From assembly GCA_002104905.1 (NCBI GenBank), contig MCFE01000880.1, positions 1 through 28,632 of the forward strand: a stretch of 28,632 nt of DNA. The letters are read 5' to 3'. Both the position numbers and the translations under genes were made by a program. The notes beneath the pieces are model-generated. The model was given only the letters and a program-made list of their open reading frames with translations, searched no databases and was not told the origin of the DNA. This stretch comes from Basidiobolus meristosporus CBS 931.73 (taxonomy: Eukaryota > Basidiobolomycota > Basidiobolomycetes > Basidiobolales > Basidiobolaceae). The first letter of the stretch is position 1. Every line of letters begins with the position of its first letter. Positions 618 to 28,632 of this stretch are shown here, in pieces.

Positions 618-3600
618 ATAATGGAGAGAGATACTGGTGAAAATACCAAGAAAATATGCAATTACACTGATGGAGAATATAACTCCAAACTTTGCACCCA
701 CTTCTACAAAACGTATGGGATAAAGCAAGAGATTACTATACCATACTCCCCACAGCAATATTCAGAATGAGCAAACTGACCCATCTTCAATATGGCAAGA
801 CCAGTGATCCACAATCAAAGATTCTCCTAAGATTTTGAGTGAAATCAGTTGCCACAGCCATATATCTCAATAATTGCAGTTATAGCTGAACACTTGATGA
901 TTCCACTGCATTTGAGGCATTGTATGGATACAGACCAAGTGCAGAACATCTCAGAATATTTGGGTGCACAGCATAAGCCAAGAAACTGCTCAGATATCAG
1001 TCAATATCTGAGCCAAAAAGTCTGTAATGCATATTTTTGGATTATGGCAATGAGAGCAAGATATACAGACTGTACAATATTAAAGTAAAGATGCTGATTG
1101 TTGTATTCAGGAGGAAAATGTAATAAAACTCTTGAATGGTTTAACTAAACCTAAGGGACAACTAAGTGCAGAATCTTAGAATTGTCAGCAAGTGGCAGTA
1201 ATAATAGTGGACTGATTCTAATCAAATATTGGTCTTGTATACAGCTGGGTTTGGCTGTAAGGCAACAGGGTTGGTTTGCTTTACAGGCTAGACTTAGTGT
1301 TCATGGGAGTGCTAGATATGCTAGGCTTGGGTAGAGGCTTTAACAGAATTGTTGAGTTCTTAAGTTTTCTCAGACACAATCTTAGTTTTGTTGTGACACA
1401 TCCCAAAGCAAAAGGTTCAGTAGACTTTATTTATACTTCTCTGATCAAATTGAATTAGTAAGCACCAAGTGATTGCATTAATTGAAATGTGCTTAGGTGT
1501 TGATATGCACATAAGATAAATGAAAACTGCATCATAATCTACTGATCTGTTGACAACTGCTAAGTAGTTAGATAGATTTCAGATGACTAATCACTTGGAA
1601 AGGCTTAGCAGATCAATTGAGAACATAATGACCACATGAAAATTGATCAGGTATGACAGCTAACAATAGATTCTGAGAAAAGATAAGATAAACTATTACT
1701 GGTATTAGTGATGTTGGGGTTAGGGAAAATCTGTCAAGGTACTAGATTCTACAACATAGTAAAATTGGCTAAGCTTTAAATGTTGATGCATAACACTGAT
1801 CAACTCTAGGGATGTGTTGTTTGATGAAAATAAAAATTAGCAAAAAAAATGACATCAGATAACAACACAAATCTGATCTCAAGTCTACCAACAGTCAGGA
1901 TCAAATCAGAGTATAACATTGAGAATTGTTACACTACAGGGGACTCTGCAACCATGGCTCAGCCCAAATCAGAGCCTAGGAATATTTTAGAAGTAATCAA
2001 TTCAGTATTTTGGAGCTGGAGACCCAACTGGACCATAAATAGCACAAATAACTGTATCAATGAGGGTACAAATCTAGCCTATGCCTATTCAATCCATACT
2101 GGTGAGCCTAAGACTATAAAAAAGGCTCTAAATGGCCCTCAAACAAGGTTGTGGAGATCTACAACAACTGAGGAGTATCAGTCCTGGATGGAAACCCAAA
2201 CTTAGGACTTAGTCAAATTATTGACCAACTAAAAATCAATTGGATGCAGATGGGTCTTCAAGACAATACATATAGTTGATGGTACAATTGAAAGCTAAAG
2301 AGCAAAACTTGTGGCCAGCAGATAATGTCAAACAGACTTACTTGACTATACTGAGACCTTTGCATTGGTAGTCAAGTTTAATTCTAATAGAGTAATATTG
2401 GCTATTGCAGCCCAATATAGGTTTTTACTCATCATATAGGGTAAAGACTGCAGTTTTAATGGAGAACTTGTTGAGGACATGTATATGTACCAGCCTGATT
2501 AGTTTGCTGCCCAAGAAAACCCCCATCCAATCTACAAGCTCAAAAAATCTCTTTATGATATCAAAAGCTCACCAACAGCCTGGAGTTGCAAGATTAATTT
2601 GTACTTGGAATCATTAAGTTACCAAAGGAGTACTGTCCACTATTGTATCCACTGTAAGCCAGATAGAGCAAGTCCAGTTCTTTTAGCTCTAATGTGGATG
2701 ATTTATAATTGCTACCAATAACTGTGAAACATTGGAAGAGACTAAAACAGCCAATCTGAGGAGTTCAAGATGTCTGATCTAGGAGAACCCAGTTACTACT
2801 TAGGGATGAGGTTCTCTATGGCTAGAAGTACTCAGAATATCACCCTAGGTAAGTCCAAGTGTATTCTAGATATACTCAAGAAGTTCCAAATGGAAGTCTG
2901 TAAACTGGTAGCTACCCCAATGGAAACAAACCTCAACCTGGTCAAAACTCAACCAAATCAAGAGAGCTTAATGCCATATGAAAGCCCTGACTTTCCTTAT
3001 AAATCAGTAATTGGCAGTCTCATATATATCATGCTAAGAACATGTCCAAGTATTTCATGTTCAGTGGGAGTTTTTAGTCAGCATAATGAGGACTACCAAT
3101 CTAATCATATTACAGCTGTCAAGTGGATTTTGAGATACCTAAAAGGAGCTGCTGATATCTGCTTATGATATACCAATAAGGACTCAGAACAGGATCTTTG
3201 GGATACTCTAATGCTGACTGGGGACAAAACATTAAAGACAGAACATGTATCACAGGATACACTTATATTTACTGTAAAGGAGCAATTTCTTGGAATTCAA
3301 GAAAGTCACCCTGTGTGGCACTTCTTACCACAGCAGCAGAGTATGTGGCAGCCTGTGAATCTACAAAAGAGGCAATGCAGCTATGAAAGCTTTTTGAAGA
3401 CTTAGGCTTATGTCAAAAAAGGCCAATTGCATTATTTCAAGATAACAAAGCATGCAACAAATCAGGTAGAAGCTCAACTTTTCATGCTAGAGCTTGTTGC
3501 AATATTCTGAGGAGTATTAAAAGTGATGTGGAGAATTAGAGGATTTACATGTTATTCACTTGTAGATTTATTGATCAAATGTATGATATTTATTACTAAA

Positions 3601-20063: not shown

Positions 20064-22147
20064 CTAGATGTTCATACAGACCAGTGCTAATTGTGACCAA
20101 AGATATTCAATTTTGTCTCTAGCTAATGGTTTGGTAAATGTGTCTGCAATCATTTCATCTATAAGACAGTAAACTAAGTTAGATGGCACCAAGCTCTCTT
20201 GACTTGGTAGGGTTTTGACCAAGCTAAGGTTTGTCTCCATTGGGGTAGCTGCTGGTTTGCAGTCTTCCATTTAGTACTTCTTGAGTATATCTTGAACATA
20301 CTTGGATTGGCCTAGGGTGATGGTCTGGGTACTTCTGGCTATGGAGAGCTTTATCCCTAGGTGGTAACTGAGTTCTCCTAGATTGGACACCTTGAACTCC
20401 TTAGATAGGCTGGATTTAGTCTCTTCCAAAGTTGCTAGGTTATTGGTGGCTATAATAAGATCATCCACATACAGAGCTAATAGAACTGGATATACTCTAT
20501 CTGGCTTATAGTATACACTTGAGTCAGCAGCATTCCTTTTGAAACTCAAAGATCCCAAATAAGAATCTATCTTGCAATTACCAACTTTCAGTGATTGCTT
20601 GAGTCTATATAGAGATTTAGTACACAAAATATTCTATTATAACTCCTATTTTTAAGGTATACAACTGTGGCATCTGATTCTGCCCAAAAATCATAGGATA
20701 GTTTTTGATCATGGATCATAGAACTAGCCATACCAGTTATTGATCTGTTTGCATGTTCTGCCACTCCATTTTGCTACGGAGAGTATGATACAGTAGTCTC
20801 TTACTTTATCCCATGAATTTTGCAGAAGTGGATACGCAGTTTTGAGGTATATTCTCCCAATTGTCAGAGTATATTTTATTAATTTTTTTGCCAGTTTCTC
20901 TCTCCACCATGACTTTAAGCTCCCTGAACTTAAAAAGAGCTTCTTCCTTTCTCTACATGAAGTAGATCTATGTGTATATTGTGTAATCATCATCAAAAGT
21001 GTTTAAATATTTCATCCCACCTAAGGGTGTATTTTGCATAAGTCCACAGAAATCCAAGTGAAATAAATCTAGTTTTTTCTTAGCTTTGATTAGCCCAAAG
21101 ATCTTGAACAGTTGTCTAGCTTGTTTCCTATATATATTGGCTGCACAGTGCTCCAAATTAGCTGGGGGATCAATTTTTACTCCAGAAATTAGCTGATCTT
21201 TGATCATTTGCACAAATAATCAAGATTGATGGGCCCAAATCTCCTGTGCAAAAGCATTAGAGTTGCTTCATTTAAGCTACTTATGTTGGCTACCAGGGAT
21301 GATGAAATATAAGTTAAACTGCCTAGATTCTGATCTCCAATACCCAGAGCAATATGGGCAGCATTTGATTAGTGATCCTTCATCCAGAATTGTCAATGCT
21401 GAAACTGAGACCTTCTACTGTGGCCTTGCTTACAGATAGTAGGCTCCTGGCAATTACTGGTGCAAAGAGTACTTCTTTGAGGGTAGGTGTGACTTCCTTA
21501 ACTGCTTCTAAGCTTTACCTGGATGGTCCCTTCTCCACTGTATCAATTTACTATGTGATACTTGCACTGCTGCCATATGCCTTTTATTGCTGGTAACATA
21601 TTCATCTGCAAGCATATGCTTGGTAGCCATCACTTTTGCCATGTATACCTCTTGAATATGTAAAAAATACTTTTTGGTTATTGGCCAATACAGTCCTTGT
21701 ACCTGCTGAATTCTAGCCACTGTTGTAGGTGCACTCTGGTACTTGTTTGTGTGAATTCTGCATTGAAAGATGTGATAATCTGTTTGTATCCAGGAGAAAC
21801 CTGGTAAACTCTTGTAAAGCTGTTCCAATTATAATTAGTTGCTTGTTGCATCCAACCCATCCTTGCATTACTAAACTGATTACCCATGCAATGGGGCTAC
21901 TTAGCTTCTAACTGCCAAAGGCATAGGGGTCTCCATGAGGACATCTGTGCTCAGCATTTCCCAGCTCTTCCTGGCTGTCCTTGGTATGGTAACTCATCAT
22001 AGCCATGATGGACTTGAGAACATATTCTTGATGAGATTTGGATATAATAGGGTTAGTTGAAAATCACCAAGTGCACTGCAAAACCCACTTGTTTGCCAAA
22101 CCACTACCAATATCTCCAGCTCTCTAACGGTAGCCAATGCCCAGTAT
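20064..22147 (-). pseudogene. Internally deleted Copia element body, minus strand
   Basis: Minus-strand fragments in pol order. Pre-integrase/integrase lies at 21213-20968 (DQLISGVKIDPPANLEHCAA and LDLFHLDFCGLM). Integrase core decays at 20996-20724. RT palm at 20627-20271 has LYVDDLIIATNN. The thumb is at 20270-20180 (ATPMETNLSLVKT), joined without a gap to the RNase H end (EMIADTFTKPLARDK, about 20090-20140). Most of RNase H and the RT N-terminus are therefore deleted. Upstream (21500-22140) are Gag-like fragments in which I see no zinc knuckle. Flanks are an LTR at each side. Confidence 0.8.
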
Positions 22148-22372
22148 TGTAGTAGGAGGTTTGGAGAAATTGGAAGTAATTGGGAGAACAAGTAGACTAT
22201 GTGATTTTCACCTGATGATTTATTGAATGTAAAAGTGGATTTTTTACCATGACATTGACTTGGCAAAACAGGCACAAAAAACATGATTGGGGAGGTCCCA
22301 AGAGCATATAGGCAAAGTTTGTGGCTGCTTGCACAACTTGTTGAGATTTGATATTCTAGGCACCCAATCTGT
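22148..22372 (-). repeat. Copia 5' LTR, truncated at its outer end
   Basis: The minus strand aligns with the last two thirds of the LTR, from about the GGTACCCAGAACATG position to the U5 end at about 22148. The first third is missing. At 22372 the sequence changes directly to TTAGGGGAGG, the telomere-like joint of the first SINE-like element. Confidence 0.75.
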
Positions 22373-22850
22373 TAGGGGAGGAAAGTCACCAAGTGGTGAA
22401 ATCTTTATTTACTTATGACAAGTTTCTAAAGAAGCCAAGTTAATCTGAAGTTATTCCTAGAAAGCTAGGTCTGAGAGATATCTTCCTGGTAAGCCAGGTC
22501 TGAGAGTTGAGAGGCTGAGTGGTACTGTATTTCCTAGTTAGCTAGGTCTGAGAGAGGTTTCCTGGAAAGCCAGGCCTGAGAAGTGAGAATCTGAATATAT
22601 CTGAGCTAAGTTATACTGGTTTGCGGTAGCTGAATTGTGGCCAGAATGGCCAGTAGACTGGGGGAACTGAGATGAATTTCTGGGCAATCACTGGCCAAAT
22701 TTACTAGGCAAATCTGACCAGTTAGCATTTCAAGGATTTCAGCCAATCAGAGCCTTTACTTTGCCCAATGGTTGATCAAGCCATCTCCCAATGAGCACAC
22801 ATCAATTTATTGATTGAATTTTGCTGGATCCAGGATTTGAACCCACAACC
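22373..22850 (-). mobile_element. SINE-like element copy 1 (5'-truncated), LINE-type 3' tail
   Basis: A non-coding element whose 5' side (near 22850) reads a tRNA B box, GGTTCAAATCC (minus, about 22834-22844), without the A-box half. The body carries four hairpin repeats at 22456-22469, 22485-22498, 22533-22546 and 22561-22574, plus a TGGCCA-GAA-TGGCCA hairpin at 22638-22652. Its 3' end has AATAAA, a TCACC/GGTGA stem-loop (22386-22399) and a C-run, as in the neighbouring LINEs. It is nearly identical to the copy at 25669-26190. The plus strand reads TTAGGG directly outside the 3' end. With no ORF and a LINE-like tail, it is best read as a SINE mobilised by the LINE enzyme. Confidence 0.75.
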
Positions 22851-25664
22851 AGGGGAGGGAAAGTCACCAAGTTAGTGAAATCTTTATTTGAGTTAAGAAC
22901 TAATCTAAGTACAAATAAAGAAGCCAATTCAGAGGTCTAGAGCCTCTCTAATAAGTAATCTAATTTATGTTTTGTTTCATCTCTAATGTTTGCTTCAATA
23001 AAGTAAAGCTCATCAGGGGTAAATATAAAATTCAGGGGTTTTGGGGGAAGTACAAATTGTAGATGTTTCTGATCAATATAATCCAAGACTGGAACCCAGC
23101 CTGGGATTAAGTGCAGTAGGAAAGGTGTGTGGACTTGTAAGTAGCTCTACCACATAGATCTTAGATGGTCCTGAGCCAGTAGTCTTGGTTTCTCAGCTTT
23201 TTGAAGTTTTGAAGCAAGCTCTGTTACTACAGCAGAGCCAACCAGGGTGTGCCAGCAAGAAGATTTCAGGGAGGAGTTAGATTGAAGCCATTGTTTAATG
23301 GAGGGGTTATGTGATTTCTGAAGTTTGACTAGGAAGGAAGCACGGAGATAGATCATTCGGATTTGGTATGGGTAGAACCCAAAGGCTCCATTAGTTGCAT
23401 GGATATAGGGAGATACTGGAAGATAAGGTACCAAGGATCTGATACACTGATGGAGAAATTTATCCAGGCAGTGAAGTTCTCTGGAGGTTAGGGGTATAAT
23501 GTGGAGACCAAATTCAAGTACTGGCAGCACATACTGCTTCAGAAGTATAGGGATCTTTTGAATTGGAGTGTCTGGAGTGACTACTACCAGAAGCTTTTTG
23601 AGAGCCTGTTGGGCAAGACGGATCCTATTATTCAGGTGGAGCTTGGAGTCAATCCCATGTTGACAAAACGGCAGACCTAGATATATTGCAGTTTGTTGTG
23701 GCAGAATGCTAGTGTTTTGTATAGTTGTAGTGCATCCTATTGGGACTGTCTTGGAAATTGAGAGTGAGAGGTTGTTGGCAGCCAAGTACTTCTCAATGAT
23801 GGCAGTGTCTGCTATGGGATTAGGAGTAGCAATCTTGATATCATCCGCATAGAGAGTTAGTAGTGGATAGGGAGAGTCTGGTGAGGGGCCTTTTGGAAAT
23901 AAAGGAAAGTCATGTAGGAATATCACAAATAATAAGGGACCTAGTACAGATCCTTGGACTACTCCATTTGGAACCTCATAAGTCTCTGATGTACAACTTG
24001 GATGCAAAATTTTGGCTGAGTTCTCACAAAATAGAGAACGTACAAGAAGGGTCATTGGTAGTGCGGTAACTGCTAATAGCTTTCTCCAAAGCAGAGCTCT
24101 GTCCACAGAGTCAAAGGCTTTAGTAATGTCAAACAGAATGGTTGGCAATGAGAATTGAAGTGAATGATCATGGCTTAGCACTACAGCCATATCCAAGGAG
24201 AGTTTGGGCAAGAAGCCAAACTGAGAAGGATGGAATGGATATAGTTGAGATTGCAAGGATTTTGCTATTATAAGCTCAAAGATTTTCCGGCAGGTTGGTA
24301 GGAGTGAAACTGGCCGGTAAGAACCTGGGAGTGAGTGTTTCCCCTTCCCTTTGTATAAGGGTATTACATTTGCCTGTGACCAGGCCTTTGGGGTAGTCAA
24401 TTGTTGGGCACAGATAGAGTAGAATGGGATAAGTAAGTGACTCATTTTGGAGTAGCACACCCGGAGTAGATCGTAGGTAATCAAGTCATGTCCAGGTGCA
24501 GTATTTGCAGGAAGCTTCTTTAAAATTTTCTCCAGAAGCTTTGCTGAAACCAAAATTGGAGATGTTGTACTGCTAGATATGTCACCAGTATGGTAGAAAG
24601 GAGGAGTGGGATGCATGGTTGAATCAAAGAATATAGGGGCCAGTTTGTCTGGTGATGGTATACTCCTTGCTTGGGGTCTCATGGCTTTGTATACTCTTGA
24701 TATGGACCTTGTGGTGGCATTCATATTTACTAAGGGCAAGGTATCCATGATATGAGCCCATAATCTAGTATGCTCAGTGATCTGTAGTGACTTGGAGTAG
24801 GAGATTGCGCTTTCCAGGAGGTTGTGTGTTTTTGGGTTAGGGAAACATAGGTAGCTGGAATTTAAGGCAGAAATGATGGATTTCCATTTAAGTTGGTTTG
24901 CAGATGGCTTTTGGTAGGACTTGGTGGGCAGGGCCAGACAGCCAGTGATTATGATGAAATGCTGGTAAAATAGCCATAATGCATTTACATCATCACAAAT
25001 CCATGCGGGTAAGCTGGGAAATGCATATTCTGTAAGCAAGGATAGATAGTTGGCAAAGTCCTGTGTCTGTGATACTGAAGCTTTGGCTGGCAGGATTGTA
25101 AATGGCTGAAGAAGGGTGCCAATTGGTAGGGTTTTTCTGGCAGAAATGATAATATGTATTGGCTTGTGATCAGATTTCTCTAGTGAACCACAGCTGATAT
25201 CCTCTGGCATGCTTGTAACCTGGTGGATGTACTGTAAGGCAGCTGGAGTGGCTGTTACCCAGTCAACACAACGTTGAGCTTGCTGAGTGTTTACAGTGAC
25301 CAGATGGTTTTGTCGGAGGATCTTTGTAAAGTGCTCCTCTTGGGTTCTAAGTCTGGATGAAATAGTGGTGATATTTTCAGGGTGGGGAATATTTATATCT
25401 CCCACTACCATACAAGGGATTGATGAGCTGTTAATGAATTCTGATGTGGCCAAGAAATTGCCAGTGTTATGGAGATAGACAGAGATGGAGGGAGATAGAT
25501 AATAATGGCTACTATAGTTGGAAGTGTTAGAGCATAGCAGTAATACTCATAGATGATGGATACATTTGTTGAGGGTGCAAGCTTAGAAGATGAAAGAGCA
25601 ACAAGTGCCATTGAGTGAGCTGGAAATTTTGGGTGAGCAGATGAATATGCATTCAGTCTAGAGG
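22851..25664 (-). mobile_element. LINE 1, 5'-truncated non-LTR retrotransposon
   Basis: The element runs from about 25664 (5' side, cut inside the endonuclease domain) to about 22851 (3' end). The 3' UTR (23146-22851) carries AAATAAAGATTTCAC, a stem-loop at 22864-22878 with one mismatched pair, and a C-rich terminus (CTTTCCCTCCCC). It abuts the truncated head of SINE copy 1 with no visible target-site duplication. Its 5' side abuts the 3' end of SINE copy 2 through GTTAGGG. There is no poly(A) tail. Confidence 0.85.
23147..25546 (-). CDS. LINE 1 ORF: endonuclease C-terminus and reverse transcriptase
   Basis: This encodes the copying enzyme of a non-LTR retrotransposon. Counting from TTG at 25453 (768 aa to the stop), GDIN (18-21) and SDHKPI (94-99) are the last two motifs of an AP-type endonuclease. 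A linker follows, then RT: YKGKGKHSLPGSYRPVSLLP (367-386), motif A FDITKAFDSVDR (441-452), motif B NGVVQGSVLGP (496-506), and catalytic YADD (535-538). The frame is open upstream to a stop at 25547-25549. Endonuclease similarity then continues in another frame (HPKFPAH, SSKLAPSTNVSIIYE) to about 25660, so there is a frameshift near 25500-25550. The front of the endonuclease is missing. No RNase H domain is seen after the RT. Related to, but clearly diverged from, LINE 2. Confidence 0.88.
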   Translation of the reverse strand, partial: VLLLCSNTSNYSSHYYLSPSISVYLHNTGNFLATSEFINSSSIPCMVVGDINIPHPENITTISSRLRTQEEHFTKILRQNHLVTVNTQQAQRCVDWVTATPAALQYIHQVTSMPEDISCGSLEKSDHKPIHIIISARKTLPIGTLLQPFTILPAKASVSQTQDFANYLSLLTEYAFPSLPAWICDDVNALWLFYQHFIIITGCLALPTKSYQKPSANQLKWKSIISALNSSYLCFPNPKTHNLLESAISYSKSLQITEHTRLWAHIMDTLPLVNMNATTRSISRVYKAMRPQARSIPSPDKLAPIFFDSTMHPTPPFYHTGDISSSTTSPILVSAKLLEKILKKLPANTAPGHDLITYDLLRVCYSKMSHLLIPFYSICAQQLTTPKAWSQANVIPLYKGKGKHSLPGSYRPVSLLPTCRKIFELIIAKSLQSQLYPFHPSQFGFLPKLSLDMAVVLSHDHSLQFSLPTILFDITKAFDSVDRALLWRKLLAVTALPMTLLVRSLFCENSAKILHPSCTSETYEVPNGVVQGSVLGPLLFVIFLHDFPLFPKGPSPDSPYPLLTLYADDIKIATPNPIADTAIIEKYLAANNLSLSISKTVPIGCTTTIQNTSILPQQTAIYLGLPFCQHGIDSKLHLNNRIRLAQQALKKLLVVVTPDTPIQKIPILLKQYVLPVLEFGLHIIPLTSRELHCLDKFLHQCIRSLVPYLPVSPYIHATNGAFGFYPYQIRMIYLRASFLVKLQKSHNPSIKQWLQSNSSLKSSCWHTLVGSAVVTELASKLQKAEKPRLLAQDHLRSMW

Positions 25665-26190
25665 TTAGGGGGGAGGAAAGTCACCAAGTGGTGAAATCTT
25701 TATTTACTTATGACAAGTATTTAAAGAAGCCAAGTTAATCTGAAGTAATTCCTAGAAAGCTAGGTCTGAGAGATATCTTCCTGGTAAGCCAGGTCTGAGA
25801 GTTGAGAAGCTGAGTGGTACTATATTTCCTAGTTAGCTAGGTCTGAGAGAGGTTTCCTGGAAAGCCAGGCCTGAGAAGTGAGAATCTGAGTATATCTGAG
25901 GTGAGTTGTACTGATTTGCGGTAGCTTGTTTGTGGCCAGAATGGCCAGTAGACTGGGGGAACTGAGGGGTATTTCTGGGCGATCACTGGCCAAATTTACT
26001 AGGCAAATTTGACCAATTAGCATTTCAAGGATTTCAGCCAATCAGAGCCTTTACTTTGCCCGATGGCTGATCAAGCCATCTCCCAATGAGCACACATCAA
26101 TTTATTGATCAAATTTTGTTGGATCCAGGATTTGAACCCACAACCATGGGTATGGAAGGGTTAGGGATAACCACAAGGCTAAGTGTTCTT
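25665..26190 (-). mobile_element. SINE-like element copy 2 with tRNA-like head
   Basis: The more complete copy. On the minus strand, TTAGCCTTGTGG (26171-26182) fits an A box and GGTTCAAATCC (26128-26138) a B box. The 32-nt gap between them is normal for a tRNA-type Pol III promoter. The body matches copy 1, including hairpins at 25751-25764, 25780-25793, 25828-25841 and 25856-25869. The 3' tail has AATAAA, a TCACC-AAGT-GGTGA stem-loop (25681-25694 on the plus strand), and a C-run. The plus strand reads GGTTAGGGGGG at the outer 3' joint (25664-25674). Bases 26184-26198 (TGTTCTTGGTTAGGG on plus) lie between its head and LINE 2. Confidence 0.8.
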
Positions 26191-26198
26191 GGTTAGGG

Positions 26199-28399
26199 GG
26201 GGAGACAGTCACCAACAGGTGAAATCTTTATTTCAGTTGAAACAAAGAAGCCAGCGCTACTGTTGTAGCTTTGATACAAGAGTGTGTAGCTGAGGGGAAT
26301 TTGTAGGTAAGTTAATAAGAAGTGATGATAGTTCTTCAGTGCTCAAGACACTGTTCAGTGGGAAGGGGGGTAGCAAGAGAGGTAAGAATGACTTGTGAAC
26401 AACATTAATGAGGGGAATGTGATAAGGATTGATATTCATCATAAAGGGAGTGTGCTGCTGCAGATATTGCTGCCAAAGGTCTGTCAAGTACTTCAGGTAG
26501 GCCAGCTTGGGTTTTTCTGACTGCAGAATATAGTGAGCAAACTTCTTGACTTCAGGATCTCCAAGTATAGTTCTCCAGCAGGAGCCAGGTGTTGTGTGGT
26601 GTGTTCTCTTCCAGGCCTTAATCAGTGGGTTGTTGCAGTTGTGAAGTCTGAGATATAATCTGGTTCTAAGGTAGAGAAGTCTGATCTTATAGGGCATAAA
26701 CCCAAAAGCACCAAGAATAGCATGTCTGTAGGGGCATTCAGGCAAATGAGGCACCAAGGAGGTAATGCACCATACTGCAAACTTGTCAAGCTTAGTGCAG
26801 TCTCTAGAAGTAAGAGAGAGAAGTGGTAAGCCAAATTCCAGGACAGGGAAGACAAACTGCTTGAGTAGAAGGAGGCAGCTGGGAGCTGAAGTTGTAGGAG
26901 GAGTAACAGCCAGTAGCTTGTGGAGTGCCTGTCTTGCCAGGATAATTCTCTTCTTCAGGTGTGCTCCAGAGTCTAGTCCAGTAGGAAGGAAAGGAAAGCC
27001 AAGATATGTAGCAGAAACCTGAGCAGGTATAGTGGAGTTCTCCAAGTTGATGGGAGAGCCCAAAGGTACTGTCTTTGCAATGGAAAGCTGGAGATTATTC
27101 TTCTGCAGATACTGGTGGATGGTCTGGGAGTCTTGTTGCACATTGGAGGAGGATATTCTGATGTCATCAGCAAAGAGAGTAACCAGGCAGTCAGCTGAGA
27201 GTCTTGGGAAATCATTCAGGAAGATGGCAAACAGTATAGGACCAAGCACAGAGCCTTGAACCACTCCATTAGGAACTGAGAACACAGCTGATTGCTCACT
27301 TGGGTGCAGAATTCTTGCTTGTGGATCCAGAAACAGAGACCTGACAAGGAGGGTGAGAGAGGTACTGGAGAAGCATTGCAACTTGGACCAAAGCAGATTT
27401 CTGTCAACTGAATCAAAGGCCTTAGTAATATCAAACAGAACAGAGGGATACTTGCACTGGAGAGAGTGATCTTGGCTAAGTATGACTGCATATTCCAAGG
27501 AGAGGCCAGGAACAAAGCCAAACTGTGCAGGATGAAACTTGAGGGAGTCAGAGTAGAGCTCCTGAGCAAGCAGAAGCTCAAACACCTTTCTGCAGGTGGG
27601 CAGCAGAGATATTGGCCTGTAGGAGCTAGGATCCAGGTGCTTTCCTTTACCCTTGTACAGTGGCAGAACATTTGCAAAGGACCATTCCTCAGGAGTAGAA
27701 AGCTGGGCTGAGCATTGCTGAAACAGTGGAAGCAGAAGTGCAGACATGGCCTTGGTACTAGTCTTCAGAAGCTCATAGGAGATTGTGTCCACACCTGGAG
27801 CAGTAGAGTTGGGAAGCCTCTTGAGCACATTATGGATTCTCCTTTGATCAAGTGCAAGTGGGATGGGCAGAGTCTTGAAGTCAGGATGAAAGCCAGGAGT
27901 TGAGTACTGCTTTGTAGAGAAGAAGATGTTAGCCAGCTGTTCTGTTGAAGGTAACTTCCTGGAAGAGGGCCTCATTGCCCTGTAGAGTCTTGATACTGTT
28001 CTTGTTATAGAGTTGGAAGATTGCAGAGGCAAAGAACTCATAATATGATCCCAGAGCTGAGTATGCAGAGTGTGGTGAATTGCCTTGGAGTGGTGTATTG
28101 CTGTCAGGAGGAGTTTCTCTGTTTTTGGGTTAGGGAAACTCAGGTAGCTTTGTTGCAGGGCTGAAACAATGGATTCCCATTTTCTTGAGGTAACAGCAGT
28201 AGTCTTGCATGGCAGTGAGAGGGAGGCAGACACCAGAATCAGATGCTTCACAAAGAGCCAGGCATAGTTGAGATCATATGGCAGAGAAAGTAGCAAACTG
28301 GCAAGCTTCAAGTAGTTCCCAAAGTCTTTCTTCTGATTCTTGGTAGCTTTGTGGGTGAGCACAGTAAGTTTTGGCAGCTTCTTCTTCACAACTGGTTGC
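26199..28399 (-). mobile_element. LINE 2, 5'-truncated directly into telomere repeats
   Basis: The 3' UTR is very short (about 57 nt). It holds AAATAAAGATTTCAC, a perfect TCACC-AACA-GGTGA stem-loop (plus 26209-26222) and a seven-C end. The plus strand reads GGTTAGGG into the element at its 3' joint (26191-26198). At the 5' side the coding sequence stops within ten bases of the first TTAGGG (28400), so the endonuclease and anything upstream are lost. No target-site duplication or poly(A) is seen. Confidence 0.87.
26257..28389 (-). CDS. LINE 2 reverse transcriptase ORF, intact but lacking endonuclease
   Basis: Counting from GTG at 28389, 710 aa are open without a stop. The frame continues upstream through KQPVV into the telomeric repeat as a Pro-Asn repeat, so no native start is present. 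RT landmarks: YKGKGKHLDPSSYRPISLLP (245-264), motif A FDITKAFDSVDR (319-330), motif B NGVVQGSVLGP (374-384), and catalytic FADD (406-409, at 27163-27174). A thumb and a C-terminal region follow, with no RNase H motif. The first residues align with the region just after SDHKPI in LINE 1, so the truncation removes exactly the endonuclease. I found no CpG in this ORF by eye, and every Arg codon is therefore AGA or AGG. Whether the protein is made is unknown. Clade assignment would need a tree. Confidence 0.9.
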   Translation of the reverse strand: MKKKLPKLTVLTHKATKNQKKDFGNYLKLASLLLSLPYDLNYAWLFVKHLILVSASLSLPCKTTAVTSRKWESIVSALQQSYLSFPNPKTEKLLLTAIHHSKAIHHTLHTQLWDHIMSSLPLQSSNSITRTVSRLYRAMRPSSRKLPSTEQLANIFFSTKQYSTPGFHPDFKTLPIPLALDQRRIHNVLKRLPNSTAPGVDTISYELLKTSTKAMSALLLPLFQQCSAQLSTPEEWSFANVLPLYKGKGKHLDPSSYRPISLLPTCRKVFELLLAQELYSDSLKFHPAQFGFVPGLSLEYAVILSQDHSLQCKYPSVLFDITKAFDSVDRNLLWSKLQCFSSTSLTLLVRSLFLDPQARILHPSEQSAVFSVPNGVVQGSVLGPILFAIFLNDFPRLSADCLVTLFADDIRISSSNVQQDSQTIHQYLQKNNLQLSIAKTVPLGSPINLENSTIPAQVSATYLGFPFLPTGLDSGAHLKKRIILARQALHKLLAVTPPTTSAPSCLLLLKQFVFPVLEFGLPLLSLTSRDCTKLDKFAVWCITSLVPHLPECPYRHAILGAFGFMPYKIRLLYLRTRLYLRLHNCNNPLIKAWKRTHHTTPGSCWRTILGDPEVKKFAHYILQSEKPKLAYLKYLTDLWQQYLQQHTPFMMNINPYHIPLINVVHKSFLPLLLPPFPLNSVLSTEELSSLLINLPTNSPQLHTLVSKLQQ

Positions 28400-28632
28400 T
28401 TAGGGTTAGGGTTAGGGTTAGGGTTAGGGTTAGGGTTAGGGTAGGGTTAGGGTTAGGGTTAGGGTTAGGGTAGGGTTAGGGTTAGGGTTAGGGTTAGGGT
28501 TAGGGTTAGGGTTAGGGTTAGGGTTAGGGTTAGGGTTAGGTTAGGGTTAGGGTTAGGGTTAGGGTTAGGGTTAGGGTTAGGGTTAGGGTTAGGGTTAGGG
28601 TTAGGGTTAGGTTAGGGTTAGGGTTAGGGTTA
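28400..28632 (+). repeat. Telomere (TTAGGG)n, G-rich strand running to the right
   Basis: About 233 bp of TTAGGG repeats, still continuing at the window edge. A few 5-nt variants interrupt them: TAGGG at about 28442-28446 and 28471-28475, and TTAGG at about 28536-28540 and 28608-28612. Orientation shows that the right edge is the chromosome end. Confidence 0.97.

Follow-up and report, generated by a model that had tools for sequence, protein, structure and literature searches.

How does a chromosome end come to carry retrotransposons and telomere repeats in one ordered stack? The question is raised by a stretch of 28,632 nucleotides from Basidiobolus meristosporus CBS 931.73 (contig MCFE01000880.1), here called the window, which is an entire contig (C1180) of an assembly of 89,006,234 bases in 1,311 contigs. 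Its outer end carries long and short interspersed nuclear elements (LINEs and SINEs), lying head to tail with their 3' ends inward and followed by an array of TTAGGG repeats. In the best-supported reading, which is probably correct, such elements were added serially at the 3' end of the G strand, in alternation with telomerase.

The four units (SINE 1, LINE 1, SINE 2, and LINE 2) and their joints had been described in an earlier reading made from the letters of the window (the sequence-only reading), and were confirmed at the positions below by direct reading, reverse transcriptase (RT) domains, and repeat families. Three of the four 3' joints read telomeric and the fourth lacks TTA, as that reading had it. 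ORF denotes an open reading frame and APE an apurinic/apyrimidinic endonuclease.

22371..22378, plus strand: 3' joint of SINE copy 1, reading GTTAGGGG; the inward flank is unclassified DNA beyond a copia RT fragment
22379..22850, minus strand: SINE copy 1, oriented with the 3' end inward; longer copies reach further at the 5' end
22851..22855, plus strand: 3' joint of LINE 1, AGGGG without TTA by direct reading, directly on truncated SINE copy 1; break point set by eye against SINE copy 2
22856..25663, minus strand: LINE 1, 5'-truncated; it contains an RT ORF, and the C-terminal portion of an endonuclease of APE type was recognised by eye
23147..25546, minus strand: LINE 1 open frame of 799 amino acids with an RVT_1 domain match
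25664..25670, plus strand: 3' joint of SINE copy 2, GTTAGGG by direct reading
25671..26192, minus strand: SINE copy 2, full length up to the common 5' end CCAAGAACAC (minus strand)
26191..26198, plus strand: 3' joint of LINE 2, reading GGTTAGGG; its opening bases double as the final bases of SINE copy 2
26199..28399, minus strand: LINE 2, a 5'-truncated copy of a 4,566-bp element, by comparison with longer copies
26257..28399, minus strand: RT frame of LINE 2 (RVT_1); the 5' part is absent and the frame continues into the telomere array
28400..28632, plus strand: terminal TTAGGG array of 233 bp that runs to the contig end and begins right after the C of GGTTGC

RVT_1 was matched on the minus strand with E 8e-21 in LINE 1 and 1.8e-25 in LINE 2. 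The two SINE copies aligned without gaps over 300 bp at 95% identity, and a 43-bp 3'-terminal segment was common to all four units at 63-100% identity (families D1 and D4). Truncation of LINE 2 was seen against a longer copy (L103), which goes on ...GGTTGCATAGAAAG where the window has ...GGTTGC and then TTAGGG. The motif TTAGGG occurs 48 times in the window versus 15.7 expected and a maximum of 29 in 100 shuffles, with 35 of the 48 inside the terminal array. The earlier statement that no target-site duplications are visible at these units stands, with the qualification that a duplication made of TTAGGG would be invisible.

The 3' end shared by the SINE and the LINEs was searched through the assembly as a pattern and gave 1,521 matches (1,398 forward and 123 reverse), with 0 for the backward control; 1,415 3'-end matches had TTAGGG at most 14 bases upstream, a count in which some places appear twice (6 pairs among the listed rows). 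Positions were assessed for the first 100 listed of the 1,521 places, which lie on 28 contigs. Among these matches each of the 28 contigs has a single orientation and the contig end that is faced lies at most 22.2 kb off. Ninety-two of the 100 places face the end that they lie near; the other 8, all on contigs shorter than 20 kb, point to the farther one. Eleven contigs exceed 100 kb, and all 37 listed 3' ends on them have their 5' side toward the nearer end, at most 22.2 kb away; since the remaining listed places are on contigs of about 18-20 kb, where position is uninformative, these 37 constitute the informative test. A search with SINE copy 1 listed at least 63 matches, 61 plus and 2 minus. 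Of 1,336 candidate copies of the second LINE frame (ORF2), 49 were scored; in every one the 5' side lies no more than 7.9 kb from a contig end, and the 37 of them on contigs longer than 60 kb all face the nearer end. The copia RT, used as a control, showed no strand bias: of 3,387 candidates 150 were scored, 68 on the plus and 82 on the minus strand. The sequence-only reading had expected confinement to subtelomeres, a single orientation, and TTAGGG at the 3' joints, and had named many interior copies in both orientations as the contrary result; the first is what was found (37 of 37 places and 101 of the 112 joints described below), and the second is seen at none of the 37 places listed for contigs above 100 kb. 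Single orientation and terminal position, as in HeT-A-like elements, thus hold here apart from two interior copies taken up below. One contig, C424 (312,558 bp; L024, L023, L146, and L147), carries stacks and TTAGGG at both ends and is apparently a complete small chromosome.

Joints were then counted in fetched segments, most of them chosen for a SINE match and the rest being the first listed places of the 3'-end pattern, which gave 112 distinct 3' joints (54 SINE, 33 LINE2, 24 LINE1-type, and 1 other). An in-register TTA plus G-run is present at 101 of these, with G-runs of 0 to 11. One repeat is found at 85 joints, two or more at 16 (3 of which have at least three), and 11 are without a full in-register TTA. 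One-repeat stubs outnumber two-repeat stubs by 85 to 13 (p 4e-14), and joints drop roughly five-fold with each added repeat, a fall-off as in a race. Across the genome, two or more perfect repeats were matched 286 times and three or more 65 times, versus 1,521 ends; because the repeat patterns are slightly looser in the tail, the corresponding shares of 19% and 4% are approximate. Terminal arrays are of a different length, 140-243 bp with a median of 219, and were present at 19 of the 24 contig ends examined. At three direct joints (22851 in the window, C748:60838, and C353:156832; break points by eye), no TTAGGG follows the recognisable truncated element. Cleavage of TTAGGG repeats would not readily produce such joints, but they would arise easily if a C-run annealed to one or two G residues at a bare end; it is possible that they stem from later deletion.

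A signature of telomerase was sought in the first base of the repeats. Arrays of at least four repeats on non-telomeric DNA start with CTTAGGG in 67 cases and with ATTAGGG in 9, and one-repeat joints just before an element do so in 182 and 32 cases, respectively; the count covers C versus A only, G and T starts being uncountable by the pattern used. The element strand contains 29% A and 16% C, so both biases toward C are far beyond base composition, and they are indistinguishable from each other (Fisher p 0.57). Twenty of the 67 C-start arrays were read. For 13 a comparison copy was available; the commonest copy contains the C in 11 of these and lacks it in 2, where it had been added, and the other 7 adjoin DNA without a copy among the loci fetched. 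In one such case (L068, C249:12480-12710) the CTTAGGG array begins at about 202, within the 5' end of a tRNA-Lys gene that ARAGORN places at 135-207, and is read as a telomere healed onto host DNA. Since the C start occurs also on DNA without an element copy, the signature seems not to be the element's own, and the idea that TTAGGG derives from element RNA at every joint was dropped because these seven arrays start alike. The 20 arrays had been selected for their C start, so that this is an argument rather than a test. The C start would fit telomerase beginning at the template position after G, or acting on ends in C, CT, or CTT, and a telomerase RNA template reading ...CUAACCCUAAG would explain it. 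The telomerase RNA-binding domain (PF12009) was matched in two adjacent exon-like pieces on contig C880, both above cut-off; the second has one TAG within the match, which may be an intron edge. This match (L061/L062, C880:173109-173423) lies about 20 kb from the end of the 193,232-bp contig, which also bears element 3' ends at 186917 and 191598.

The SINE is about 520 bp long and has its 3' segment in common with the LINEs; its assignment as a SINE rests on its being a short element with the tail of a partner LINE. Its copies are young, with a median nearest-neighbour divergence of 0.7% (n=46). The 3' end folds into a hairpin better than shuffled sequences in LINE2 (z -3.0) and in the two SINEs (z -1.8 and -1.7); the 3'-end pattern itself includes the hairpin stem, and stem conservation among its matches is therefore uninformative. 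A- and B-box-like motifs were recognised in the SINE by eye; ARAGORN found no tRNA in the window, and Rfam gave nothing at E<=1 in 22300-26300. Telomere-like motifs occur within the elements, namely GGGTTAGGG in the SINE (26158-26166 of the window) and TTAGGGTTAGGG (plus strand) in the 5' region of LINE2 (L148). At C1021:40521 a SINE is truncated at its own telomere-like motif and the next SINE follows directly.

A full-length LINE2 on contig C824 measures 4,566 bp and has two frames, ORF1 with 523 codons and ORF2 with 922. Its 5' end is the same in three fetched copies (L148-L150), reading ...TTTAAAGAGG on the plus strand and then GTTAGGG; in L150 (C897:50120-50300) the 5' region is tandemly repeated at the outer end. 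ORF2 was free of stops in 46 of the 49 scored copies. Its Pfam matches in the C824 copy were to RVT_1 (E 2.6e-25) and, at a score short of the cut-off, to Exo_endo_phos_2 (E 5e-4); Exo_endo_phos or Exo_endo_phos_2 matches were found in ORF2 of relatives, that to Exo_endo_phos_2 in P0007 being barely above cut-off (27.5 vs 27.4 bits). Eight APE catalytic positions were checked in an automatic alignment of 78 rows, and C824 has the commonest homologue residue at 7 of them. At the eighth, the catalytic Glu is replaced by Asp in C824 (L103 ORF2, C824:190284-193043); among 70 homologues aligned there without a gap, 68 keep Glu, and the two exceptions, P0003 and P0005, have Asp and are the closest relatives. 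An APE-type endonuclease region is thus predicted upstream of the RT, so the LINE is not of the endonuclease-lacking kind, and the likeness to endonuclease-lacking elements that the sequence-only reading had drawn does not survive. ORF1 gave weak matches only, all below cut-off and several to coiled-coil families. Assignment as a LINE rests on the RT, the upstream APE-type region, and ORF1, together with 5' truncation and a constant 3' end; all 25 LINE2 truncation points differ (111 joints examined, 39 of them without a reference). The LINE2 protein has two close relatives from Basidiobolus meristosporus CBS 931.73, one at 98% identity across 34% of the query and the other at 64% across 58%. 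A PDB sequence search returned RTs of LINE-1, R2, group II intron-like, and retron type and no endonuclease match at E<=1, and an AlphaFold model of P0003 from a six-row alignment had a mean pLDDT of 51.7.

In the proposed mechanism, the LINE RT would recognise the 3'-terminal segment common to LINE and SINE RNAs, which may form a hairpin in LINE2 and the SINE; the C-run at the 3' end of the RNA would base-pair with GGG in a short TTAGGG stub, and copying of the RNA would then proceed outward. LINE complementary DNAs would frequently stop early and those of the SINE would frequently reach the 5' end. Telomerase would seed the new non-telomeric end, favouring a C start with the C either present or added, and add TTAGGG. 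Usually about one repeat would be made before the next element arrives; otherwise the stub would grow into a telomere of about 220 bp that caps the end. The sequence-only reading had proposed priming by the 3' end of the G strand and bursts of telomerase activity alternating with retrotransposition. The joints strongly indicate that a G-strand 3' end primed the copying, although the sequence reads the same for a free end as for a nicked one; alternation is supported by the C-start bias and the telomerase domain, and about one repeat between additions describes the joints better than bursts, 85 of the 112 having one repeat. As a tentative extension, which may well prove wrong, telomere-dedicated SINEs and LINEs in this early-diverging fungus could form a second, telomerase-like end-building system, in which the C-run would serve as a template-like anchor on GGG, the elements would compete with telomerase for one-repeat stubs, and the APE endonuclease, with its Glu-to-Asp change, would no longer be needed.

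Growth at the end is consistent with the age order of the copies. Divergence, which is a nearest-neighbour measure on copies that are not independent, rises with distance from the end for the SINE (rho 0.51, p 3e-4, n=46, these being long enough among 56 copies) and for LINE2 (rho 0.39, p 0.047, n=26 of 35). Within arrays, the outer copy of LINE2 pairs is the less diverged in 8 cases versus 1.

The HeT-A, TART, and TAHRE elements of Drosophila form one-way head-to-tail stacks with 3' ends inward and 5'-truncated copies, and grow at the chromosome end. The Basidiobolus stacks resemble them in being one-way, 3' inward, 5'-truncated, and at the chromosome end, and differ in having telomerase repeats at joints and ends, a C-run tail instead of poly(A), and a SINE partner. 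Eel LINE/SINE pairs of the UnaL2 type share a 3' tail, as do the Basidiobolus SINE and LINE with their hairpin-forming 3'-terminal segment; unlike in the eel, this tail terminates in a C-run opposite telomeric GGG, and the target is a chromosome end. The TRAS and SART elements of Bombyx mori have an APE-type endonuclease. They are LINEs at telomeric repeats with a fixed site in (TTAGG)n, SART1Bm requiring three repeats or more, according to the available part of PMC7265360. The Basidiobolus LINEs are likewise at telomeric repeats and of APE type, but 101 of 112 joints are telomeric with mostly one repeat, some with none, and with variable G-runs, and the elements, unlike TRAS and SART, may not be inserted inside arrays.

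MoTeR of Magnaporthe oryzae and FoTeR of Fusarium oxysporum are fungal non-LTR (long terminal repeat) elements located in TTAGGG telomeres; as in Basidiobolus, their copies are separated by TTAGGG tracts (available parts of PMC7367193 and PMC12857005). The orientation of FoTeR would be 5' outward, judging from the repeat strand in Table 3 of PMC12857005. In the same portions of the two papers, FoTeR and MoTeR1 have a restriction-like endonuclease (REL) and group with CRE elements; the Basidiobolus LINEs differ in the APE-type region upstream of the RT (no search was aimed at a REL motif), a separate ORF1, and a tail shared with a SINE. FoTeR 3' ends have about 3-7 repeats (PMC12857005, same part), and those in Basidiobolus mostly one. 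Athena Penelope-like elements of bdelloid rotifers are also telomere-associated retroelements (PMC3846280, in part); unlike the Basidiobolus LINEs, they are endonuclease-deficient and of another retroelement class. In frogs, SINE sequence is enriched near chromosome ends as it is here, but as tandem expansions of a 52-bp piece, with intact copies genome-wide, and insertion at telomeric repeats is not described in the available part of the source (PMC10794172). Among the titles and abstract openings listed in searches of open-licence papers, none dealt with SINEs at telomeric repeats or with Basidiobolus telomeric elements, and the frog report was the nearest.

Retained endonuclease positions invite an account in which APE-dependent, target-primed insertion into TTAGGG arrays took place as in TRAS and SART, with the G strand nicked near the first repeat and the distal array either staying on the 5' side or being lost and regrown. 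Relatives do have the endonuclease matches in ORF2 (below cut-off in the C824 LINE2), and C824 agrees with its homologues at seven of the eight positions. Random insertion into arrays of about 36 repeats should leave mostly long stubs, contrary to the 65 matches with at least three repeats versus 1,521 ends; furthermore, the joints carry the C-start signature of new telomere formation, some have no TTAGGG target at all, and the catalytic Glu that 68 of 70 homologues keep is Asp in the LINE2 clade. Endonuclease-dependent insertion into arrays is weakened accordingly and is considered unlikely. Random telomere insertion followed by selection would yield short stubs if long interstitial TTAGGG broke and was healed, and in MoTeR interstitial tracts of up to two repeats are indeed stable and breakage begins at three (PMC7367193, available part). 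A cut-off at three repeats predicts one- and two-repeat classes of about equal size, and the observed 85 versus 13 joints, or about 1,029 versus 221 genome-wide (assuming about 100 double counts), make this account improbable.

Stacks could also have spread mostly by recombination or break-induced replication between ends, with few true retrotranspositions. The right ends of C22 (L054) and C25 (L060) do have an identical truncation point before the terminal array, and haplotigs are possible in the assembly; the 25 different LINE2 truncation points among 25, together with varying G-run lengths and neighbour orders, leave this explanation a very small probability. An artefact, in which contigs were broken at repeats and the repeats so placed at ends, has the fragmentation of the assembly (1,311 contigs) and the frequency of contigs ending in repeats to recommend it. 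It would not fix orientation, and on long contigs not one of the 37 listed places faces away from the nearer end; 19 of 24 examined contig ends finish in TTAGGG and the dispersed copia elements are unbiased, so that an artefact is scarcely credible.

Several observations weigh against serial addition at the G-strand 3' end. Two interior LINE2 copies surfaced in listings of other patterns. One, C136:42580 (L105/L157, C136:41400-43000), is on a contig of 167,007 bp whose nearer end is 42.6 kb away; for the other, C402:165365 (L155, C402:165100-166300), the contig measures 246,065 bp and its nearer end is 80.7 kb away. Each shows about 90-92% identity with LINE2, is turned toward the nearer end, and still has a CTTAGGG joint, and both are probable relics of former chromosome ends; further interior copies may exist, since the places listed are 100 of 1,521. 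Five of the 24 contig ends examined are without an array, one of them the inner end of the window contig. Repeats were counted strictly, so that imperfect ones shorten the tract, and at least 2 of the 11 joints without TTA (C726:67682 and C29:17623) come after degenerate repeats. Short stubs could be survivors where long interstitial tracts break, as the available part of PMC7367193 suggests. A retained APE-type region with most catalytic positions would be odd if it were never used. The 3' end of the window LINE 1 folds no better than shuffles (z 0.1), and the outer copy of SINE pairs within arrays is less diverged in only 11 cases versus 7, which is weak. The common truncation point of C22 and C25 may reflect haplotigs, copying from one end to another, or a site at which healing is favoured, and the first two of these may inflate the counts.

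If serial end addition in alternation with telomerase is correct, telomerase and retrotransposition share chromosome ends in one genome and have left a stepwise record at more than 1,000 joints, and non-coding SINEs would join the list of chromosome-end builders. The stub-length distribution would then be a measurable rate of competition between telomerase and elements, and an APE-type LINE with an altered catalytic residue would be a natural place to study the origin of endonuclease-free, telomerase-like end addition.

Two minor features were recorded besides. A short interior telomeric tract (CCCTAACCCTAACCCTAACCCTAA) is present in L102 (C583:9000-9400), with no element adjoining in the stretch read. 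In the inner part of the window, copia-type retrotransposon fragments are located at 20271-20633 (RVT_2 match) and 2746-3168 (by eye).

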